DNA of 64,000 nt. Origin: Micromonospora sp. WMMD812 (GTDB lineage Bacteria; Actinomycetota; Actinomycetes; Mycobacteriales; Micromonosporaceae). The notes beneath the pieces were generated by a model. The model worked only from the letters and a program-made list of their open reading frames with translations, was not told where the DNA came from and made no database searches. Made by a program: the position numbers and the translations under genes. Positions 5,844 through 46,023 of the stretch are shown piece after piece. Position 1 is the stretch's first letter, and the number at the start of each line of letters is the position of its first letter. The DNA is taken from positions 2,626,001 through 2,690,000 of the forward strand of contig NZ_CP114904.1 in the NCBI RefSeq assembly GCF_027497215.1. Direction: 5' to 3'.

Positions 5844-6884
5844 GTGCCGGATCCGACCGCTCTGCCCTGGCCCCTGCCGTGGACTGCCGCCGTGTTCCTC
5901 CTCGCCGGCGCGGTCACCGTCGCGGGCAGCATCCGGCTGGCCGGCCTCGGCGACGCGCTCGCCGATCGCACCGGTTGGGGCGAGGCGCTGTTCGGCGTGG
6001 TGTTCTTCGGCATCGTCACCGGCCTGTCCGGCATCATCATGACCATCGTCGCCGCGGGCAGCGGGGAGGCCAGCCTCGGCTACAGCAACGCGGTCGGGGG
6101 GATCGCCGCCCAGACCACCGCCGTCGCCGTCGCGGACGCCTTCCACCGGCGGGCCAACCTCGAACACGCCGCCGCCTCCCTGTCGAACGTGCTCTCCGGC
6201 TGCCTGCTCATCGCACTGCTCGCCCTCGCCCTGCTGGCGAGCTACATCCCGGAGACCACCATCGCGGGTGTCGACCCGATGTCCGGTGTCATCGTCGCCG
6301 CGTACGTCGGTGGACTGGTCCTCATCCGCCGCGCGGGCGCCCAACCGATGTGGCAGGCCATCGCCACCGCCGAGACCCGGCCCGACGTCCCGCACAACGA
6401 GAGCCCGCTGAACCGCCGCTCACCCCGGTGGTTGTGGAGCCGTTTCGCGGTCGTCGGCCTGCTCGTCGCCGCCAGCGGGTGGCTCGTGGCGCTCGCCGCG
6501 GAGAGCCTGGTCGACGTCACGGGCCTCACGGCCGGGTTCGTCGGTGCGGTGCTCATGGGTGTGGTGAACGCGCTACCGGAGACCGTCACCGCCATCGCCG
6601 CCGTCCGCCGCGGCGCGGTCACCCTGGCCATCGCCGCGGTCCTCGGCGGCAACATCCTCGACGTGCTCACCCTCGTCGCCGGCGACGTCGCCTACCGGCA
6701 GGGGTCGATCTACCACAGCGCCGGCGACCAGGAACTGCTCGCGACCACCACCAGCCTGTTCATGACCGCCACCCTCCTCGGCGGCCTGCTCATCCGGCAG
6801 ACCTGCGGCTGGGGCCGGCTCGGCTTCGAGGGCATCCTCCTGCTGGCCAGCTACGCCGCCATGACGGCCGTCCTCGCGCTCTGA
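5844..6884 (+). CDS. Sodium/calcium exchanger superfamily (CaCA) membrane protein
   Basis: 346 residues with about ten membrane helices. The two alpha-repeat signatures are visible: SGEASLGYSNAVGG near residue 75 and the second repeat NALPETVTAIAAVRRG with AVLGGNILDVL near residues 235-270, containing the acidic residues expected in ion binding. It probably exchanges Na+ or H+ for a divalent cation. The ion is not predictable. The start is a GTG at 5844. Divergence from the CNNM/CorC-like gene suggests, as inference, a shared divalent-cation context. Confidence 0.8.
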   Translation: MPDPTALPWPLPWTAAVFLLAGAVTVAGSIRLAGLGDALADRTGWGEALFGVVFFGIVTGLSGIIMTIVAAGSGEASLGYSNAVGGIAAQTTAVAVADAFHRRANLEHAAASLSNVLSGCLLIALLALALLASYIPETTIAGVDPMSGVIVAAYVGGLVLIRRAGAQPMWQAIATAETRPDVPHNESPLNRRSPRWLWSRFAVVGLLVAASGWLVALAAESLVDVTGLTAGFVGAVLMGVVNALPETVTAIAAVRRGAVTLAIAAVLGGNILDVLTLVAGDVAYRQGSIYHSAGDQELLATTTSLFMTATLLGGLLIRQTCGWGRLGFEGILLLASYAAMTAVLAL

Positions 6885-7022
6885 ACCCGGCGCCCCGGGC
6901 GGCGTCTGGCCGACCACCGATCGCACCGCCCGGGCCGGCCATCGACCGCGCCTCGCGGGCGGGCCACGGGCCGGGTCGACCGGCCGGCCCCGCGCCCGCA
7001 CCGACCCGTGGCGGACGGTGGT

Positions 7023-37563: not shown

Positions 37564-38634
37564 TCACGCGGTCTGGTCGCGCAGCGCCTGCTCGACGGCC
37601 TTCTGCACGCGGTCGTCCTCGTGCCGCTTGCGCCGCGCCCGGTTGCGCCGCGCGAGCAGGCGCGCCACGACCACGACGGCGACCACCACGACGACCAGCA
37701 GCACCAGCGTCCACGGGAGGGCCAGGCCGTGCGCCGTGGCACGGACCGGCTCCAGCGAGGTGGTGGAGCCCGAAGCGTCGGTGAGCAGCGGCGTGATGGT
37801 CGTGGTCGCCGCCAGCCAGACCGCCGGCGCGACGCCGTCCACCGGCACCGTCACCTTCCAGCTCTCGCCGGGAAGCAGCTCCGGGGACGCCTGGATCGCG
37901 CCGGCCTGGGTGCGCAGCCACCCGAACGGCCCGGCGACAGTCGCGTTCTGCTTGCTCGACAGGGCCGCGTTGCCGGTGTTGTGGATCGTGTAGGTGACGG
38001 TGGCGTCGCTCTTGCCGAACGGGTTGACCGTGCCGGCGTAGTCCACGTGGACGTCCTCGACCGCGAGGCTCGGCTTCAGCTCGCCGCCGACGCGCATCTT
38101 GATCCGGATGCCGAGGCGCCGGTCCACGTTGACGCCCTGCGCCTGGTCGGGCTGGGTCAGCGAGGTGAGGACTCCGCCGACGTAGTCACCGGGCGTGGCG
38201 CTGCCCGGGACGCTGATGGTGAAGGGGACCTGGGCGGTCTTTCCCGGCTGGATGGTGACGGTGGCGGTGCCGGCGTGGGCCCAGGCGCCGATCGCGATCG
38301 ACTTCTTGTCCTTGGTGAACAGGTCGAGCTGGCCCGCGTCGGTGGTGAAGCCGTCGGCGGCGTACACGGCGAGGGTCAGTGGCGCCGGTCCCCGGTTGGC
38401 CACCACCATGGCGTCCTCGACCACACCACCGGGGTTGACGTTGTAGCTGTAGCTGGACCGGTCGGCCCCGTAACCGTTGGAGGCCGTCCGGACCGTCCAG
38501 GCGACGTCGCCGTCGGCGGCCAGGGCGGGGCCGGCGCCGACACCGGCGGCCGCGACGACGGCGAGCAGGGACAGGGCGGTCGTACGGAGGAGCGTGGCGG
38601 TCCTGGTCTTCCAGCGCGGTACGGGCGCGTGCAT
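37564..38634 (-). CDS. DUF916 (WxL-interacting-protein-like) membrane-anchored surface protein
   Basis: 356 residues. A signal peptide ending GAGPALAADG is followed by a DUF916-type domain (residues ~42-165: YSYNVNPGGVVEDAMVVANR, ATVTIQPGKTAQVPFTI, PGDYVGGVLTSL), a second beta-sandwich (LAVEDVHVDYAGTVNPFGKS, VTYTIHNTGNAALS), one membrane helix (WTLVLLVVVVVAVVVVARLLA) and a basic tail. This is the architecture of Firmicute WxL-interacting proteins, which anchor WxL-domain proteins at the wall. The gene directly upstream encodes a phosphatase with a WxL-like C-terminus, which supports a partnership. ATG 38634 follows AGAGGACG. The 92-base spacer contains a very stable hairpin. Confidence 0.82.
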   Translation of the reverse strand: MHAPVPRWKTRTATLLRTTALSLLAVVAAAGVGAGPALAADGDVAWTVRTASNGYGADRSSYSYNVNPGGVVEDAMVVANRGPAPLTLAVYAADGFTTDAGQLDLFTKDKKSIAIGAWAHAGTATVTIQPGKTAQVPFTISVPGSATPGDYVGGVLTSLTQPDQAQGVNVDRRLGIRIKMRVGGELKPSLAVEDVHVDYAGTVNPFGKSDATVTYTIHNTGNAALSSKQNATVAGPFGWLRTQAGAIQASPELLPGESWKVTVPVDGVAPAVWLAATTTITPLLTDASGSTTSLEPVRATAHGLALPWTLVLLVVVVVAVVVVARLLARRNRARRKRHEDDRVQKAVEQALRDQTA

Positions 38635-38676
38635 CTCTCGTCCTCTGGGTGATCTTGCGAAGGTGGCGAACGGGTG

Positions 38677-38708
38677 GCGGGGTAGGCGCCCGAAGGCGCC
38701 TACCCCGC
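38677..38708 (-). terminator. UUCG-capped 14-bp hairpin between phosphatase and DUF916 genes
   Basis: Arms 38677-38690 and 38695-38708 are perfectly complementary. On the transcribed minus strand the loop reads UUCG closed by C-G, an exceptionally stable tetraloop. No U-tract follows. Between two same-strand genes it could be a partial terminator or an mRNA-stabilising element that sets the ratio of phosphatase to anchor protein. Confidence 0.65.
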
Positions 38709-38726
38709 ACGATGGAGCCGGTTCGA

Positions 38727-40700
38727 TCAGCTGCTCAGCGCAGTGATCGTGAGGGTGGTGCGGTAGCTGCCCTTGGTGACGCTGTCCGGGATCTTCAGAT
38801 CCAGGTCGGCGCCGAGCTTCGCCCCGCCCCGGGGGTGGCCCTGCGCGGCCGAGCCGAGACCGCTCGACACCGAGAGGCCCTTGCCCTGGTCGTCGTAGGA
38901 CGACAGGACCGGAGCCCCGGCCTCGGCGCCGGCACCGGCGTCGAGCACGTACGGCGTCCAACCCAGGTACGAGCCGGAGAAGGTCTTGTCGCCGTCGGTG
39001 AAGTCACCCACGCTGGCCGAGATCGACCACGGGGCGAGCGAGCGGCGGCTGTCCGACACGAGGATCGGGTTGATCTTGCCGTTCGCCGCGAAGTAGGCGC
39101 CGTCGCGCTCCTGCGCGGTGCCGAGGTCGACCAGACCGTTGTAGCCGTCGATCGTCCAGCCGAACTCACCCGGGGCCGGGTTGGGCACGTTGACCTGGAT
39201 GTCCTGGCCCGAGCCGTGGTAGGGGTGCACCGTCACGTTGTCGACGATCGAGCCGACCGGCTGCCCCTCCGGGGTGTTGGTGCAGGACAGGCCCTTCTCG
39301 ACCGCCGCGTTCGGCGCCGAACAGGTGCCGCTGCGGACGTTCTCGAGGACCAGCTTGTTCGAGCGCACCTGCACCTTGACGTAGCTGCGGACGTGCTCCT
39401 GGTTCTGCACCGAGTTGTACCAGTACTTGTTCGGGTCCAGCGGATCGGGTCCGTTGCCTCGGATGCCCGTACCGCTGCTGTCCGGCTTCTTGATGTCGTA
39501 GTACTTCGAGCCGGAGGCCGAATTCGCCGTCACGTAGATGACGCCGCCCGGACCGGGGTAGACCTCGGCCGCGCCGGGCTGCTCCGCGGGGTTCGCCTTC
39601 TGGCCGTTCTTGATGGCGTAGCTGCGGGAGTAGCTGTGGTCGTGACCCTGCAGCACCATGTCGATGCCGAGGTTGGAGAAGGCGGTCGTGAAGTCCTCAC
39701 GCCGCTGCTTGTTGTCGCTGTCGGTGGCGTGGCTGGCCGGAGAGTAGATGGAGTGGTGGTAGACCAGCACCTTCCACTTGGCCTCGGCGCCGTGCTTGTT
39801 GACGACGTCGGTGACGTACGCGACGTGCGCCGCGTCGCCGCCGAGGGAGCCGTCGGCGGGGTTGACGTAGCTGTTGCTGTTGATGTCGATGAACAGCACG
39901 TCCTTGTAGACGAACCAGTAGTCACCGCCGGACCGGGTCGCCTGGTCCCCGCTGTAGTACTGGGCCGAGCGGTCGGTGTTCGGGGTGAAGTGGTGCTGCT
40001 CGTAGGACTTGCCGCCGACATCGTGGTTACCGATGGTGGCGACGAGCGGATACTGACGCAGCTGGTCGGGCGCCATGAACGAGGTCCACTGGCCCTCGTC
40101 GTTGGCGCTCTCCACGTGGTCGCCGCCCGACACCAGCAGTTCGGCGTTCGGGTTGGCGCCGGTGGCGACCTTCAGGGTCTCCTCCCAGCCGGCCTGGTCC
40201 TTCAGCCGGTCACCGGACGAGCCGATCTGCGGGTCGCCGAAGAACAGGAAGTCGTAGTCGCCCTCGAAGTCCTGCGTCTTGAACGAGTACGCCGGCGACC
40301 AGCTGCCCTCGGAGCCGACACGGTACGAGTACGCCGTGTTCTCCCGCAGGTTGGTGATCGTGGCGTGGCGGTTGAAACCGCTGGTGGAGGTGTTCGCCCC
40401 ACCGACAGCGTCGAAGCTGACGGCGTTGGCCGGGAACTCACCGTTGACGATCTCGGCGGTCGGGGCGACCTGGATCTTCTGCGCGGTGTCGGCCGACGAG
40501 TACCAGGTGACGATCCGCTGGGTCTCGTTGGCGCCGACACCGAGGACGACGCCGCTGAGCGTCGTGGGGTCGGCCGCGCTGGCGGCGGCCCACAGGCCGC
40601 TACCGAGGGCTACGGTCAGACCCAGCACGCCCGCGGTGGCCCCTGCGGCCACGCGACGCCGCACCAGCCCGGAGGCTCGCGTCGTGGTGCTGAATTCCAT
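38727..40700 (-). CDS. Secreted purple acid phosphatase-like metallophosphoesterase with WxL-like C-terminal domain
   Basis: 657 residues. The signal peptide is followed by a fibronectin-like N-terminal domain (IVTWYSSADTAQKI to YSYRVGSEGSW) and a metallophosphoesterase core with FFGDPQIG, LLVSGGDHVE, ATIGNHDVG, VYHHSIYS and LQGHDHSYSR, the five metal-binding blocks of purple acid phosphatases. Residues 513-657 form another module, with WSISASVGDF (Trp558), GSYLGWTPYVL (Trp581), LGADLDLKIP and the end YRTTLTITAL, resembling a WxL domain. It should release phosphate from organic esters at the surface. ATG 40700 follows AAAAAAGGAAAG. PHO-box-like repeats lie 76-97 bases upstream. Confidence 0.87.
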   Translation of the reverse strand: MEFSTTTRASGLVRRRVAAGATAGVLGLTVALGSGLWAAASAADPTTLSGVVLGVGANETQRIVTWYSSADTAQKIQVAPTAEIVNGEFPANAVSFDAVGGANTSTSGFNRHATITNLRENTAYSYRVGSEGSWSPAYSFKTQDFEGDYDFLFFGDPQIGSSGDRLKDQAGWEETLKVATGANPNAELLVSGGDHVESANDEGQWTSFMAPDQLRQYPLVATIGNHDVGGKSYEQHHFTPNTDRSAQYYSGDQATRSGGDYWFVYKDVLFIDINSNSYVNPADGSLGGDAAHVAYVTDVVNKHGAEAKWKVLVYHHSIYSPASHATDSDNKQRREDFTTAFSNLGIDMVLQGHDHSYSRSYAIKNGQKANPAEQPGAAEVYPGPGGVIYVTANSASGSKYYDIKKPDSSGTGIRGNGPDPLDPNKYWYNSVQNQEHVRSYVKVQVRSNKLVLENVRSGTCSAPNAAVEKGLSCTNTPEGQPVGSIVDNVTVHPYHGSGQDIQVNVPNPAPGEFGWTIDGYNGLVDLGTAQERDGAYFAANGKINPILVSDSRRSLAPWSISASVGDFTDGDKTFSGSYLGWTPYVLDAGAGAEAGAPVLSSYDDQGKGLSVSSGLGSAAQGHPRGGAKLGADLDLKIPDSVTKGSYRTTLTITALSS

Positions 40701-40775
40701 CGATTACTTTCCTTTTTTCGATGGGATACGGGATGCTTTCCCGAGGCAACGAAAAAGCCTCCTCACGCTTTACCC

Positions 40776-40797
40776 GCATCATGAACCGGCCATGAAT
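40776..40797 (-). promoter_or_regulatory. PHO-box-like pair of 11-nt repeats upstream of the phosphatase gene
   Basis: On the minus strand ATTCATGGCCG (40797-40787) and GTTCATGATGC (40786-40776) are exactly adjacent 11-base units matching the PhoP repeat core GTTCACC at 4 and 5 of 7 positions. They lie in the 142-base gap after the HupE stop. Nearer the gene, GAGGC and GCCTC arms flank an A/T-rich loop in the leader. An internal phosphate-controlled promoter is inferred. Confidence 0.45.
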
Positions 40798-40842
40798 GCG
40801 ATCTGGCAGACAGTTGCACGTCCCGGAATTCCTGCCAGTGTC

Positions 40843-42060
40843 TCAGGATGCGAGAACCCGCTGCACGAACCAGACCAGGCCCATAATGGACACGCCAGCA
40901 GCAATCGCGCCGGTGACCCAGAGGCCGACTCTCGGGAATGTGCGCCGCACCACAATCAGCACCGGAAAGACGACTCCGATGACGGCCAACTGCACGGCCT
41001 CGATGCCGACGTTAAACACCAGCAGCGACCACAGCAGGGTCCACGACCACGCCTCGTCGATGCCCAACGCGCCGGCGAAGCCCAGGCCGTGCACGAGGCC
41101 GAAGCAGAACACGACGCCGAGCCGAAGCCAGCCCGAACGGTCCAGGCTGAAGTGGCCGCCTCCGGCCGTCTCGAGGTCCGTCGCGTGGTCGCCGCGCCGC
41201 CAGATCCCCCACAGGTGCCAGCCGGCGACCACGGCGATGGACAGCGCGATGACGGGCTCCACGACCGCCGCGGGCACGTCGACCAGGCCCAGGGCGGCGA
41301 CCATGAACGTCACCGAGTGCGCCAGGGTGAAGCTCGTGGCCGCGAGCACGATCTCGCGCAGGCGCCGCGACCCGGCGATGAGCGCCAGCAGGAACAGGAT
41401 GTGGTCGATCCCCGTCAGCAGGTGCTCGGCGCCCAGGACGAAGAACTCCCGAAAGCGGTCGTACCACGCCTGGCCGGTCGAGAATGACGGACTATCGGCG
41501 TCGAGCGCGGCGCTGCCGGAGTGACCGTCGAGGTCGTAGGTAACGATCGTCTTGGTGCCCTTGACGTAGCCCTCGGAGTCGGGGAACAGACCACTGCGCA
41601 CCTCGTGCGCGTCGACCTGCTCGGGGCAGGCCCAGTCGAGCAGCAGACGCGCGTACGGCACACCCTCCTGCACGCCCATCGTGACGTCGCCGACCCGCGT
41701 CGGCGCGCACGCGCCGCCGCCCGAGGTCACCGAGAAGCGCTCGGTGACGTACCTCGCGGCCGCCGCCAGGTGGGTGTTGAGCGCCGCGGCCTGCGCGGCG
41801 GCGTCACCGGCCTCGAACGCGGCGGTGCCCGCCTTGAAGAGCGGGTCGTCGTGCTCGTAGTCGGCGGCGGAGACGACGAAAAGGTCGTATTCGAGTTCCA
41901 ACTCCGTCCGAATGTGACCCTCGTCTCCCGGTGTGATGTTCGCGTAAACCGTCGACGAAAATCCATGGGCAAGCGCCGGCGTGGCACCCAGAAGTGTCAG
42001 CCACGCGGCCACGATTCCGACGACGAAGGTGATAACGGCACGGCGAATGGTACGCGACAT
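40843..42060 (-). CDS. HupE/UreJ family transporter with extracytoplasmic N-terminal domain
   Basis: 405 residues. A signal peptide (ITFVVGIVAAWLTLLGATPALA) is followed by about 185 external residues starting HGFSSTVYANITPGD, then seven helices with the HupE hallmark GAEHLLTGIDHILFLLALIAG, FTLAHSVTFMVAALG and FGLVHGLGFAGALG. The His/Asp-containing helices resemble nickel/cobalt permeases of hydrogenase and urease loci, but no hydrogenase or urease gene is near. It is the first gene of a minus-strand set with the phosphatase and DUF916 genes, so metal supply to surface phosphatases is an attractive guess. ATG 42060 follows GAGGGAG. A PHO-box-like array lies upstream. Confidence 0.85.
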   Translation of the reverse strand: MSRTIRRAVITFVVGIVAAWLTLLGATPALAHGFSSTVYANITPGDEGHIRTELELEYDLFVVSAADYEHDDPLFKAGTAAFEAGDAAAQAAALNTHLAAAARYVTERFSVTSGGGACAPTRVGDVTMGVQEGVPYARLLLDWACPEQVDAHEVRSGLFPDSEGYVKGTKTIVTYDLDGHSGSAALDADSPSFSTGQAWYDRFREFFVLGAEHLLTGIDHILFLLALIAGSRRLREIVLAATSFTLAHSVTFMVAALGLVDVPAAVVEPVIALSIAVVAGWHLWGIWRRGDHATDLETAGGGHFSLDRSGWLRLGVVFCFGLVHGLGFAGALGIDEAWSWTLLWSLLVFNVGIEAVQLAVIGVVFPVLIVVRRTFPRVGLWVTGAIAAGVSIMGLVWFVQRVLAS

Positions 42061-42097
42061 GGTGCTCCCTCGTTTTTGGCGAGTGCACGTTGCACGC

Positions 42098-42141
42098 CAG
42101 GGATGAACACCAGTCCCACCGTCGGCGAACCACCGGCGAAC
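42098..42141 (-). promoter_or_regulatory. PHO-box-like array of 11-nt direct repeats upstream of the HupE operon
   Basis: Four consecutive 11-base units read on the minus strand: GTTCGCCGGTG (42141-42131), GTTCGCCGACG (42130-42120), GTGGGACTGGT (42119-42109) and GTTCATCCCTG (42108-42098). Units 1, 2 and 4 match the PhoP core GTTCACC at 6 of 7 positions each and keep exact 11-base phase; unit 3 does not match. The site is 38 bases before the HupE ATG and is shared with the divergent lipoprotein gene at 42236. Confidence 0.6.
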
Positions 42142-42952: not shown

Positions 42953-44284
42953 TCAGCCCGTCGTGGCGGCCCGCGCCTTCAGCCGGCGCAGCTCCTCGGC
43001 CGACATCAGCCAGGTGGAGTTCGTCGCGCCGAGGCCGAGGAGCACCTGGTCGAAGGTGTTGCCGTCGTTGTCGTCGGTGTAGCAGGCGGCGACCTCGCCC
43101 CACGGGGACGCGGCGACCGCCATCTGCTCCTGGCGGCCCGTCGTCGTCTGGCTCAACGCCTGGGTCGCCAGCCGGCCGGTGGCCGTGCCGTCCGGGTTGA
43201 GACCCCGGGCCCACACGTCGGGGGTGCTCCCCCGCACCGTCCAGCCCACCACGACGTTGTCCTGGTCGTCGATGCCGACGCCCGGGGCCGTGGCGCCGGT
43301 ACCCGTGGAGACCTCGACCTCCGCGTGCCGCGCGACTGCGGCGGCGGTGAACGAGCGCTCCCAGACGCCCCGGGTGCCGGTGTGGTCGGACTCCCACGCC
43401 ACGGTGAAGTCACCGGCGAAGTTGGCCGCGATCGAGGCCCGCTGCTGCTGCCCGCCGCTCTGCGTGTTGGCCGTCCGCCGCGACAGCACCACCGACCCGT
43501 TGGACCGCGCCAGCCGGGTCAGCCCGATGTTGTACGCGCCGTTCGCGTCGGCGTCCTCGTCCCAGACCACCAGCGCCTCGCCGGAGGCGGAAACCGCCAC
43601 GTCGGGGCGGTGGTGCGCGCCCGTCGTCTGCGAGGCCGTCACCTCGTACGCCTTCGTGGCGGCGGCCGTGTAGCCGGCGGCCTTGACGGTGGCGGGAGCG
43701 CTGCCCTGCACGTCCTCCCAGACCACGGCGAAGCCGACCGCCGCGGTGGTGGGCGCGCCGTCGGGGTCGACCGCCACCTTCGGCCAGATCTGCTGGCCGG
43801 CGTCGTTGGCGTTGACCTGCCCCGAGCCGAGCACCGCGCCGGCGGGCGACACCACCCGGTACTGGATGTTGTAGACGCCGTTGCCGTCGCCGTCGGCGGC
43901 CCAGACCACCACCGCGTTGCCCCGGTCGTCGAGCCCCACGTCCGGGCTGATGTGCCGCCAGGCGGCCCCGCTGGTGCCGCCGCCGGACAGCTTCACCTCG
44001 TAGGCGGACGTGCCGTTGGTGAACAGGCGCAGGTAGATCTCGCTGTGGATGTCGTCCTCGGGTGCAGTGCCGTCCCGGTCGTCCTCCCACACGACCGCGA
44101 CGTGACCGTTGCGGTTCATGGCGATGGCGGGCACGTCCTGGTCGCCGGTGGCGGTGCTGTTCGCCGTGGTCCAGGTGACCGCCGCGGCGGTGACTGCGGT
44201 CGGCCCGGCGGCGAGCGCGCCGACGGGGGTGACGGCCGGTACCGCGAGAACGGACGCGGCCAGCAGTGACGTGAATGTGCTCAT
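42953..44284 (-). CDS. Secreted Asp-box/BNR-like propeller protein
   Basis: 443 residues with a signal peptide (LLAASVLAVPAVTPVGALA). Repeated blades each hold a xxVVWxDxxDGNG-type strand: HVAVVWEDDRDGTAPE, NAVVVWAADGDGNGVYNIQY, GFAVVWEDVQGSAP, EALVVWDEDADANGAYNI, DFTVAWESDHTGTRGV and VVVGWTVRGST. This gives a six- or seven-bladed propeller with Asp-rich, possibly Ca-binding loops. No catalytic residues are seen. It starts 12 bases after the PhoD stop with GGAGGAG 6 bases before the ATG, so the two are one operon. A role in binding substrate or the surface for PhoD is inferred. Confidence 0.75.
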   Translation of the reverse strand: MSTFTSLLAASVLAVPAVTPVGALAAGPTAVTAAAVTWTTANSTATGDQDVPAIAMNRNGHVAVVWEDDRDGTAPEDDIHSEIYLRLFTNGTSAYEVKLSGGGTSGAAWRHISPDVGLDDRGNAVVVWAADGDGNGVYNIQYRVVSPAGAVLGSGQVNANDAGQQIWPKVAVDPDGAPTTAAVGFAVVWEDVQGSAPATVKAAGYTAAATKAYEVTASQTTGAHHRPDVAVSASGEALVVWDEDADANGAYNIGLTRLARSNGSVVLSRRTANTQSGGQQQRASIAANFAGDFTVAWESDHTGTRGVWERSFTAAAVARHAEVEVSTGTGATAPGVGIDDQDNVVVGWTVRGSTPDVWARGLNPDGTATGRLATQALSQTTTGRQEQMAVAASPWGEVAACYTDDNDGNTFDQVLLGLGATNSTWLMSAEELRRLKARAATTG

Positions 44285-44296
44285 CGGTGACTCCTC

Positions 44297-45823
44297 CTAC
44301 CCGGCCTGCAGGCCGGGCTGGCCGTCGAGAATGACGAACGAACGGACCGTGGACGCCGCCGCGCCGTGCTCGGTCACCGTGCTCACCGCGCGGAAGTCCG
44401 CGCGGACCTGACTGCGGCTGATCGTGGTCCGGACGTAGCCACGCCGGTCCGAGTGGAACCTGAGGTGCGGGTTGGTCGCCGCGTTCGGGATGGTGGTGCT
44501 GCCGCTGCCGTTGCCACCCGAGGTGATCGAGGTGCAGACCAGTTCGGTGCCGATCGTCGCGGAGGACGGGTTCGCGTAGTCGGCCTTGAGATCGTTGGCC
44601 CAGGCCCGGTGGACGTCGCCGGTGAGCACCAGCGGGTTGCGCACCGCGCGCTGCTGCCAGCCGGTCTGGATGCGGCTGCGGGAGGCCCGGTAGCCGTCCC
44701 AGGCGTCCATGTTCGCCGCCCCGTTGGCCTCGAACTGTCGGGCGAAGAAGACCTGCTGGCCGAGGATGTCCCAGGTCCCGTAGTGCTGGGCCAGCCCGTC
44801 GAGCAGCCAGGCCTCCTGCGTCGCGCCGGTCAGCGACCGGGCGGCCAGGTCGGCGTCCGTGCAGACCTTCCAGCCGTCGCCGCAGGCCTGGTCGTCGCGG
44901 AACTGGCGGGTGTCGAGCATGTGGAAGGTGGCGAGCTGCCCCCAGCGGACGCGGCGGTACAGCGGGATGCTGTTGCCGCTCGGCGCGGACGACGGCCGCA
45001 GCGGCATGTTCTCGTAGTACGCCCGGTACGCCGCGGTCCGCCGGGCGGTCCACTGCGCGGCGGTCAGCGTCGGGCTGCTGTCGGCGCGGACCATGTTGGC
45101 GTAGTTGTTCTCCACCTCGTGGTCGTCCGGCACCACCAGCCACGGCGCCGCCGCGTGCGCCGCCTGCAGATCCGGGTCCGACTTATAGAGCGCGTACCGG
45201 CGGCGGTAGTCGGCCAGCGACACGATCTCGCTGCCGACGTGCTGCCGGACGGCGGAGGTGTTGACGCCGCCCTCGTAGATGTAGTCGCCGAGGTGCAGGA
45301 TCAGACCGGGGTTCTCCTCGGCCATCCGTCGGTAGGCCGTGTAGTAGCCGGCCTCGTAGTGGGCGCAGGAGGCGAAGGCCATCACCAGGTCGCGGCCGAA
45401 GGTGCCGACCGCCGGGGCGGTACGCGTCCGCCCCACCGCGGAGATGTGTCCCTGGGCCCGGAAGCGGTAGTAGTAGTCGGAGTCGGCCGCGAGCCCGCCG
45501 GCGACCACGTGCACCGAGTGCGCGTCGGCGTAGCGGGCGACCACCGAGCCGGAGGCGACCAGCGAGGAGAAGCTCGCGCTGGTCGACACCTGCCAGTCGA
45601 CGGTCACGTCGGCGTTGGCCATGCCGCCCTGCCCGTCGGCGTTGAGCGGTGAGGGCGCCAGCCGGGTCCAGAGGACGATGCTGTCCGGCGCCGGATCGCC
45701 GGACGCCACACCGAGTTTGAAGGGGTACGGCACCGCGGCCCGGGCACCCTGCCAGGGTGCGACCGCGGCGCCCGCGGCGGCGAGTCCACCGAGGACGAAG
45801 ATGCGACGGCTAAGCCTTGTCAT
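44297..45823 (-). CDS. phoD: Tat-exported PhoD-family alkaline phosphatase/phosphodiesterase
   Basis: 508 residues. The N-terminus RLSRRIFVLGGLAAAGAA is a twin-arginine signal. An N-terminal beta domain (FKLGVASGDPAPDSIVLWTRLA) precedes the PhoD metallophosphatase core: FASCAHYEAGYYTAYRRMAE, LILHLGDYIYEGG, VPDDHEVENNY, FHMLDTRQFRDDQ and LVLTGDVHRAWAND. PhoD enzymes use Ca2+ and Fe to release phosphate from mono- and diesters and are usual Pho-regulon members. ATG 45823 follows GAAGG by 8 bases. ATG 45841 is an alternative. The last codons form CCGGCCTGCAGGCCGG, a palindrome at the junction with the next gene. Weak PHO-like units lie upstream. Confidence 0.9.
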   Translation of the reverse strand: MTRLSRRIFVLGGLAAAGAAVAPWQGARAAVPYPFKLGVASGDPAPDSIVLWTRLAPSPLNADGQGGMANADVTVDWQVSTSASFSSLVASGSVVARYADAHSVHVVAGGLAADSDYYYRFRAQGHISAVGRTRTAPAVGTFGRDLVMAFASCAHYEAGYYTAYRRMAEENPGLILHLGDYIYEGGVNTSAVRQHVGSEIVSLADYRRRYALYKSDPDLQAAHAAAPWLVVPDDHEVENNYANMVRADSSPTLTAAQWTARRTAAYRAYYENMPLRPSSAPSGNSIPLYRRVRWGQLATFHMLDTRQFRDDQACGDGWKVCTDADLAARSLTGATQEAWLLDGLAQHYGTWDILGQQVFFARQFEANGAANMDAWDGYRASRSRIQTGWQQRAVRNPLVLTGDVHRAWANDLKADYANPSSATIGTELVCTSITSGGNGSGSTTIPNAATNPHLRFHSDRRGYVRTTISRSQVRADFRAVSTVTEHGAAASTVRSFVILDGQPGLQAG

Positions 45824-45841
45824 GTGCCATACCTTCAACAT

Positions 45842-45885
45842 CGTCGATGAACGGCGTCCGGTGCGGCGCGGAATCTGAGGTGACA
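45842..45885 (-). promoter_or_regulatory. Weak PHO-like units upstream of phoD
   Basis: On the minus strand TGTCACCTCAG (45885-45875, 5 of 7 core matches) and GTTCATCGACG (45852-45842, 6 of 7) lie in 11-base phase. The two units between them (ATTCCGCGCCG and CACCGGACGCC) match poorly. Suggestive only. Confidence 0.3.
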
Positions 45886-46023
45886 CGACGCTGTCCGCGC
45901 CAAGGCCGTCTGGTGTCGTCACCCTCCGTGACACGGCCCAAGGGGAACGCCGAACCGGCCGCCTGCTCCCCGGAAAACCGGTTTGATCGGTACGTCGGAT
46001 CGAGCCGAGAGCGGGAGGCCGGG

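Follow-up and report, generated by a model that had tools for sequence, protein, structure and literature searches.

A probable phosphate-starvation operon for a surface-tethered phosphatase with a WxL-like module and a DUF916 partner in Micromonospora

Three genes on the minus strand

Three consecutive minus-strand genes in a 64,000-nucleotide stretch of the Micromonospora sp. WMMD812 genome (contig NZ_CP114904.1, positions 2,626,001 to 2,690,000; the whole stretch is called the window) encode a HupE/UreJ-type permease, a metallophosphatase and a DUF916 protein, separated by gaps of 142 and 92 bp (Table 1). The scanned host genome is a single contig of 7.13 Mb. The original prediction, made from the letters of the window, had read the genes as a WxL-type system displaying a phosphatase. 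Pfam confirmed its gene identities (HupE_UreJ_2, Pur_ac_phosph_N with Metallophos, and WxLIP_PGBD). The phosphatase landmarks that it named, Trp558 (in WSI), Trp581 (in LGWTP) and the end YRTTLTITALSS, were found as claimed, as was the one membrane helix of the DUF916 protein, a single hydrophobic C-terminal stretch. Signal peptides and membrane helix of the window proteins were judged by eye. The gene coordinates also held, except for the start of hupE. The GTG at 42141 is probably wrong and the ATG at 42060 is preferred, because 42102-42141 is promoter-like and the ATG yields a start resembling a signal peptide that ends in ALA before HGF. No NCBIfam family scored above its curated cut-off in the window proteins or the window module, and the phosphatase, HupE and module had no NCBIfam match at E≤1.

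Table 1. Features of the hupE-phosphatase-DUF916 locus (window coordinates)
Feature	Position	Strand	Evidence
hupE (Ang-2-type HupE/UreJ-2 permease)	40843..42060	-	Pfam PF13795 E 2.2e-35; ATG start, ALA-HGF; His after presumed signal peptide
Purple-acid-phosphatase-like metallophosphatase, 657 aa, presumably secreted	38727..40700	-	PF16656, PF00149; phmmer to kidney bean purple acid phosphatase 1kbp, E 2.9e-9
C-terminal WxL-like module, residues 513-657	38730..39164	-	PF13731 E 0.036 for stretch 38730-39191 alone; family evidence; AlphaFold2 model of a homologue
DUF916/WxLIP protein, 356 aa, presumed signal peptide, two Ig-like domains, one membrane helix	37564..38634	-	PF06030 E 8.3e-9
DUF916 hairpin loop, residues 158-174, SLTQPDQAQGVNVDRRL, proposed WxL-docking hairpin	38113..38163	-	Loop length survey
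DUF916 transmembrane helix, residues about 305-327	37654..37722	-	Hydrophobic stretch ALPWTLVLLVVVVVAVVVVARLL, by eye
PHO-box-like operator GTTCGCC-GGTG-GTTCGCC-GACG-GTGGGAC-TGGT-GTTCATC, 11-bp-phased units, 41 bp before hupE ATG	42102..42141	-	Unit score 18

The phosphatase and its C-terminal module

The phosphatase matched Pur_ac_phosph_N (1.9e-16) and Metallophos (1e-9), and its closest relatives among the matches listed were from Micromonospora (88-89% identity). Residues D156, D194, N225, H315/316, H353 and H355 were invariant in an 11-row alignment of phosphatases. In purple acid phosphatases a tyrosine is a ligand of Fe(III). The window enzyme shares their N-terminal and catalytic domains, but the position of this tyrosine, mapped by eye on 1kbp, is held by a glutamate (E197) that is nearly invariant in the same alignment, so that the enzyme is probably not purple. 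The phosphatase family was found at E≤1e-40 in 21 of 393 genomes of the class, and 17 of the 21 also have DUF916.

The last 145 residues of the phosphatase had been proposed to be a WxL domain. We compared 45 such modules, the one from the window and 44 remaining from 85 (found in the DUF916 loci described below) after a 70% identity cut. Matches to the Pfam WxL family (PF13731) at E≤1 were obtained for 32 of the 45, the best at 9.9e-10, and all 85 module matches ended 17 residues or fewer from the C-terminus. An AlphaFold2 model of a homologous module had predicted local distance difference test (pLDDT) scores of 87-97 across most of its length. WxL domains are defined by two W-x-L motifs, the distal one being YxxxLTWxLxxxP (PMC5817068). 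The first-place motif was present as W-x-[LIV] in 38/45 modules and LxWxP in 33/45, while neither the distal motif nor two W-x-L motifs occurred in any of the 45. Lacking these despite the family matches, the phosphatase tail is, on its sequence, a WxL-like variant, related to WxL and not canonical. The proposal of a WxL domain is thus partly supported, through the family-level matches, the window module itself staying below the Pfam cut-off.

The DUF916 protein

The window DUF916 protein passed the Pfam cut-off for WxLIP_PGBD (36 bits, cut-off 27.3). It had no match to DUF3324 (WxLIP_HBD, PF11797) at E≤1, unlike the Enterococcus gilvus WxL-interacting protein (WxLIP), which matched PF11797 at 1.3e-31. 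The second domain of a DUF916 homologue was nevertheless modelled as Ig-like. A profile of 49 DUF916 sequences, the window's included, found EfmWxLIP1 (9i25_C) at E 8.5e-5, and hhalign aligned DUF916 with the E. gilvus WxLIP at 75.9% probability (E 2.3e-5). The modelled fold matched solved WxLIP, and the WxLIP of 9i25 was solved bound to WxL. The fold list for the fused model described below gave one chain per entry and was filled by its DUF916 part, so that a missing WxL chain there is uninformative. Looking in the literature for a publication on 9i25 turned up a single, unrelated paper.

Module genes lie beside DUF916 genes

Four DUF916 genes were found in the host genome (E≤0.001), each directly preceded by a gene whose product ends in a module of this kind. 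DUF916 was present in 83 of the 393 genomes of the class. We fetched 80 loci of about 140 listed, mainly top-scoring ones, leaving out the window's own locus and including the other three from its genome. The module profile was seeded with the host genome's four modules and iterated on the DUF916 loci, and hence was fitted to them. A module gene lay immediately upstream on the same strand in 72/80 loci, three of which are those of the host genome whose modules seeded the search; one further locus (L100) was recognised by eye as the 73rd. In two loci (L067, L096) the module was on the opposite strand and farther away. No module was detected in five (L078, L080, L087, L091, L098), of which three have phosphatases with short tails. 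The 85 module matches were spread over 75 loci, mostly one module protein per locus. Searching whole genomes with the module alignment gave 108 positives among the 393, namely 79 of the 83 genomes with DUF916 and 29 of the 310 others (Fisher p about 1e-52, with genomes treated as unrelated and a profile built from these genomes' own DUF916 loci). The synteny on which the original prediction hinged is thus conserved for module and DUF916.

Module and DUF916 also appear to be inherited together. Their distances were correlated across the 72 pairs (Mantel r 0.85, reached in 0/2000 permutations), and the true pairing within a genome beat the swapped pairing in 20/20 comparisons. Both results can also arise through linked inheritance alone.

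The cargo carried by the module varied. In Pfam and NCBIfam scans of 44 module proteins (E≤1e-3), WxL itself was recorded in 11, HtaA, the most frequent cargo domain, in seven, Big_3_5 in four, choice-of-anchor M/TIGR03773 in four, purple acid phosphatase in three, and glycerophosphodiesterase, an ice-binding domain and a 3-keto-disaccharide hydrolase-like domain in one each. With such varied cargo, the module-DUF916 pair looks like a general display device.

Two further loci were recorded. One module protein of the host genome (L002, 7-1059) has a choice-of-anchor M / TIGR03769 repeat. On a Clavibacter phaseoli plasmid (L194, 854-5002), DUF916 stands in a row with a family 43 glycosylhydrolase and a small hypothetical protein, perhaps a further cargo type.

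Phosphatase tails and the presence of DUF916

A survey of phosphatases took the best 80 of at least 564 confirmed stretches, which represent 78 loci. Two loci (L155, L172) end inside the gene and were dropped, leaving 76 and the window to be counted. DUF916 was adjacent to 51/52 phosphatases with the WxL-like module, to 12/12 with a short tail and to the single one with a different C-terminal stretch (L177, Solirubrobacter), and to 0/12 with other ends. By eye, these other ends were repeat-like in six Curtobacterium, Frondihabitans, Galbitalea, Nocardioides and Glaciihabitans, and sortase-type in Mycetocola (LASTG) and Plantibacter (LANTG); three Curtobacterium ends were judged on their last 14 residues only. 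Eleven of the 12 genomes with other ends had no DUF916 at E≤0.001 and one (L186) had one elsewhere. The other-end state needs at least three separate changes on the tree, and DUF916 follows in 3/3 independent pairs.

In the 12 short-tail loci (L157, L158, L160-L167, L171, L190) the module is replaced and DUF916 kept. The short tails mostly follow linkers rich in Pro, Gly and His and end in WLQ (7/12) or PLQ (1/12). The remaining four have a W-x-x-Q stretch and the end TLTALS, VTALN or TLTSVS; these four are similar to the last strand of the module (TTLTITALSS). The loop that DUF916 has between GGIxT and GIR, which was not parsed in L126, L148, L164 and L177, differs in length between the two tail types. 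It had 16 or 17 residues in 47/48 module-type loci (22 in one) and 8-14 in 9/11 short-tail loci. In published AlphaFold2 models from Firmicutes the DUF916 hairpin sits in a gap of WxL (PMC10599100), so that a lost module and a decayed hairpin fit a single interface. The covariation of hairpin and tail type is suggestive of such a shared interface.

The proposal of WxL-type display outside Firmicutes is supported by adjacency, co-inheritance and tail switching, with the reservation that the module is a WxL-like variant only. The module could be an unrelated beta-sandwich whose proximity to DUF916 is coincidental, as the weak score of the window module alone and the distal motif missing from 45/45 modules would allow. 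The family's WxL matches, the 72/80 adjacency, the co-inheritance and the tail switching all speak for relatedness, and we consider coincidence very unlikely.

Two phosphatase loci stood apart. In Solirubrobacter phytolaccae (L177, 4044-6803) the C-terminal stretch AFTPG...TGAYTKSLTFTLSTTNP precedes DUF916 and may represent a second WxL-like family. In Micromonospora parastrephiae (L156, ~6671-6973) the phosphatase frame is broken near the module, whose end lies in another frame, through an assembly error or in reality; this locus was counted among the 51 module-type loci with DUF916.

HupE and the PHO-box-like element

HupE was found in 67/78 phosphatase loci, both with and without DUF916. 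Histidine was the first residue after the presumed signal peptide in the window HupE and in 65/67 loci (by eye; L145 and L155 could not be assessed). PF13795 followed by this His1, with the cleavage site placed by eye, characterises the window protein as Ang-2, the HupE type that is confined to Actinomycetota (PMC12537917). The Ang-2 domain of Microbacterium binds Cu2+ with a Kd of 62 nM, and metallophosphatases and DUF916 are listed among Ang-2 neighbours in the same 2025 paper (PMC12537917).

PHO boxes of Streptomyces consist of GTTCACC units in 11-nt direct repeats (PMC6988585, PMC7244524, PMC4832192), and at least two such units upstream mark a member of the Pho regulon (PMC6988585, PMC7244524). 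Before the hupE ATG of the window, three good 7-bp units (positions 1, 2 and 4 of four) stand in 11-bp phase. No other site in the 64 kb reaches 16 with its best three of four units; this one scores 18. Shuffled windows held 1.75 sites of at least 16 and none of at least 18 per window (20 shuffles). Across 67 regions upstream of hupE (66 loci and the window) the mean score was 15.55 vs 11.96 ± 0.13 after shuffling. A score of at least 16 was reached in 35/67, compared with a shuffled mean of 0.12 (maximum 1) and 0.48 (maximum 2) for random stretches of the same loci. Without the window, a period of 11 was the best of those from 8 to 16: with it 34/66 regions reached 16, with any other period at most 3. 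None of 55 control regions before DUF916 reached 16. A score based on pairs of units was weaker, with 10/67 regions at 12 or more vs 0.03 in shuffled and 0.9 (maximum 5) in random stretches.

The element likewise resembles that of Streptomyces in lying upstream of a phosphatase operon, and it suggests control by phosphate starvation, with PhoP as the presumed regulator of the window operon. Sorted by phosphatase end, again without the window, 16 was reached in 8/9 regions with other ends, 5/12 with short tails and 21/45 of the rest. As it occurs with other phosphatase ends too, regulation seems to apply to the HupE-phosphatase core, with the anchor as an exchangeable part.

The set might serve primarily for metal acquisition, as proposed for Ang-2 (PMC12537917), with the phosphatase freeing metals from phosphate complexes or being a minor partner. 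The copper affinity and the printed neighbourhood of Ang-2, the N-terminal His in 65/67 HupE loci and the HtaA (7/44) or choice-of-anchor M (4/44) domains on other actinobacterial module proteins are in keeping with such a role. The promoter element, however, is PHO-box-like and is kept in 8/9 regions with other phosphatase ends, and two Zur-like patterns matched 0/67 upstream regions. We regard metal acquisition as an unlikely primary function.

Proposed function and relation to known systems

The three genes probably form an operon that responds to phosphate starvation and encodes a phosphatase tethered to the cell surface by an actinobacterial variant of the WxL/WxLIP pair. This reading builds on gene content, conservation, module-DUF916 pairing, the correlation of tail with DUF916, hairpin covariation and the conserved PHO-box-like element; from these we infer regulation, physical binding, surface location and enzymatic activity. 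PhoP would bind the PHO box and switch on the hupE, phosphatase and DUF916 genes, as the motif suggests. The exported phosphatase would dock through its WxL-like beta-sandwich on the membrane-anchored DUF916 protein, whose hairpin would pack against the module, as covariation and modelling suggest. In favour of this docking, AlphaFold2 modelled a read-through fusion of module and DUF916 with a predicted template modelling score of 0.78, and the hairpin tip had a pLDDT of 76 in the fusion vs 57 for DUF916 alone. Held at the cell surface, the enzyme would free phosphate near the cell, and HupE/Ang-2 would capture a metal ion outside and import it.

Several observations weigh against this reading. 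The window module scored below the PF13731 cut-off of 25 bits (14.5 bits, E 0.036), close to the 14.1 bits of an E. gilvus protein encoded between WxL and WxLIP; the module protein at L001, also in the host genome, passes (25.2 and 26.4 bits in two scans). Against PDB sequences, a small module profile (A1) had no match at E≤1 and a larger one (A2) found no WxL chain, its best matches being glycoside hydrolases (E 0.007). The module family aligned with three E. gilvus proteins at hhalign probabilities of 0.1, 1.3 and 17.7%, the last with one WxL protein at the first Trp motif. In the fusion model the interface itself was not seen, and the two pLDDT values of the hairpin tip are each from one run, made on different alignments. 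There are the 29 genomes with a module match and no DUF916 match, and one locus (L173) with a module and no DUF916 within its 7.7 kb, five DUF916 lying elsewhere in that genome. The tree-aware pair test gave p 0.25, three pairs being too few for significance. Short tails trace back to one or two events in the tree, which keeps hairpin covariation from being proof, and two short-tail loci (L158, L163) keep a 17-residue hairpin. The PHO-box score of 16 was reached in only about half of the upstream regions, and also in 15/66 of the 240-bp stretches before the phosphatase open reading frame (ORF). The latter perhaps overlap the hupE promoter where the ORF start was called too early, or are a second site.

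DUF916 could also be a chaperone, tethered to the membrane, for the folding or export of the WxL-like protein, much as PapD/FimC act on a pilus subunit, and not a permanent anchor, leaving the phosphatase bound to peptidoglycan through its module or released. We consider this improbable and favour tethering by DUF916.

Compared with Firmicutes clusters of WxL and WxLIP (DUF916-DUF3324; PMC10599100, PMC9772566; PDB 9i25, 9i1y), the locus shares a presumably secreted protein that carries its module at the C-terminus and is encoded beside DUF916, and a DUF916 protein that combines two Ig-like domains with one membrane helix and a long hairpin. It differs in its phosphatase cargo, in a module with one W-x-[LIV] motif and with LxWxP where the distal motif would stand, and in a second Ig domain without a Pfam DUF3324 match. 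Clusters in Firmicutes combine a small with a large WxL protein, whereas actinobacterial loci mostly have one module protein per DUF916. The published Ang-2 loci (PMC12537917) share the HupE type with His1 and the metallophosphatase and DUF916 neighbours; the accessible parts of that paper do not report a WxL-like phosphatase domain, a link between tail and DUF916, or a PHO box. The view that the combination had not been described is therefore only partly borne out, the neighbourhood being in print. No report of the module on a phosphatase, the tail swap, the hairpin covariation or the PHO box turned up in the titles, abstracts and passages covered, outside which lay most subscription papers, preprints and supplements.

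A wider reading is offered tentatively. WxL-like module and DUF916 may form a general platform by which Actinomycetota display proteins without sortase, serving nutrient capture rather than host adhesion, with phosphatase, glycerophosphodiesterase, heme-binding HtaA and transporter-associated proteins as cargo. One lineage would have exchanged the folded module for a short C-terminal peptide (W-x-x-Q, WLQ or TLTALS types) that still addresses the enzyme to DUF916, while the hairpin decayed. If the proposed function is true, surface anchoring known mainly from Firmicutes extends to soil actinobacteria, with a nutritional role and a likely regulatory signal, and Ang-2 permeases gain a phosphate-starvation context. 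Through the natural swaps between module, short tail and sortase-type end, an anchoring role of DUF916 would be open to direct tests.

Upstream of the operon and on the same strand, the window encodes a 443-aa protein with no Pfam match above cut-off (42953-44284) and a PhoD-type alkaline phosphatase (44297-45934; Pfam PhoD 2.4e-107).

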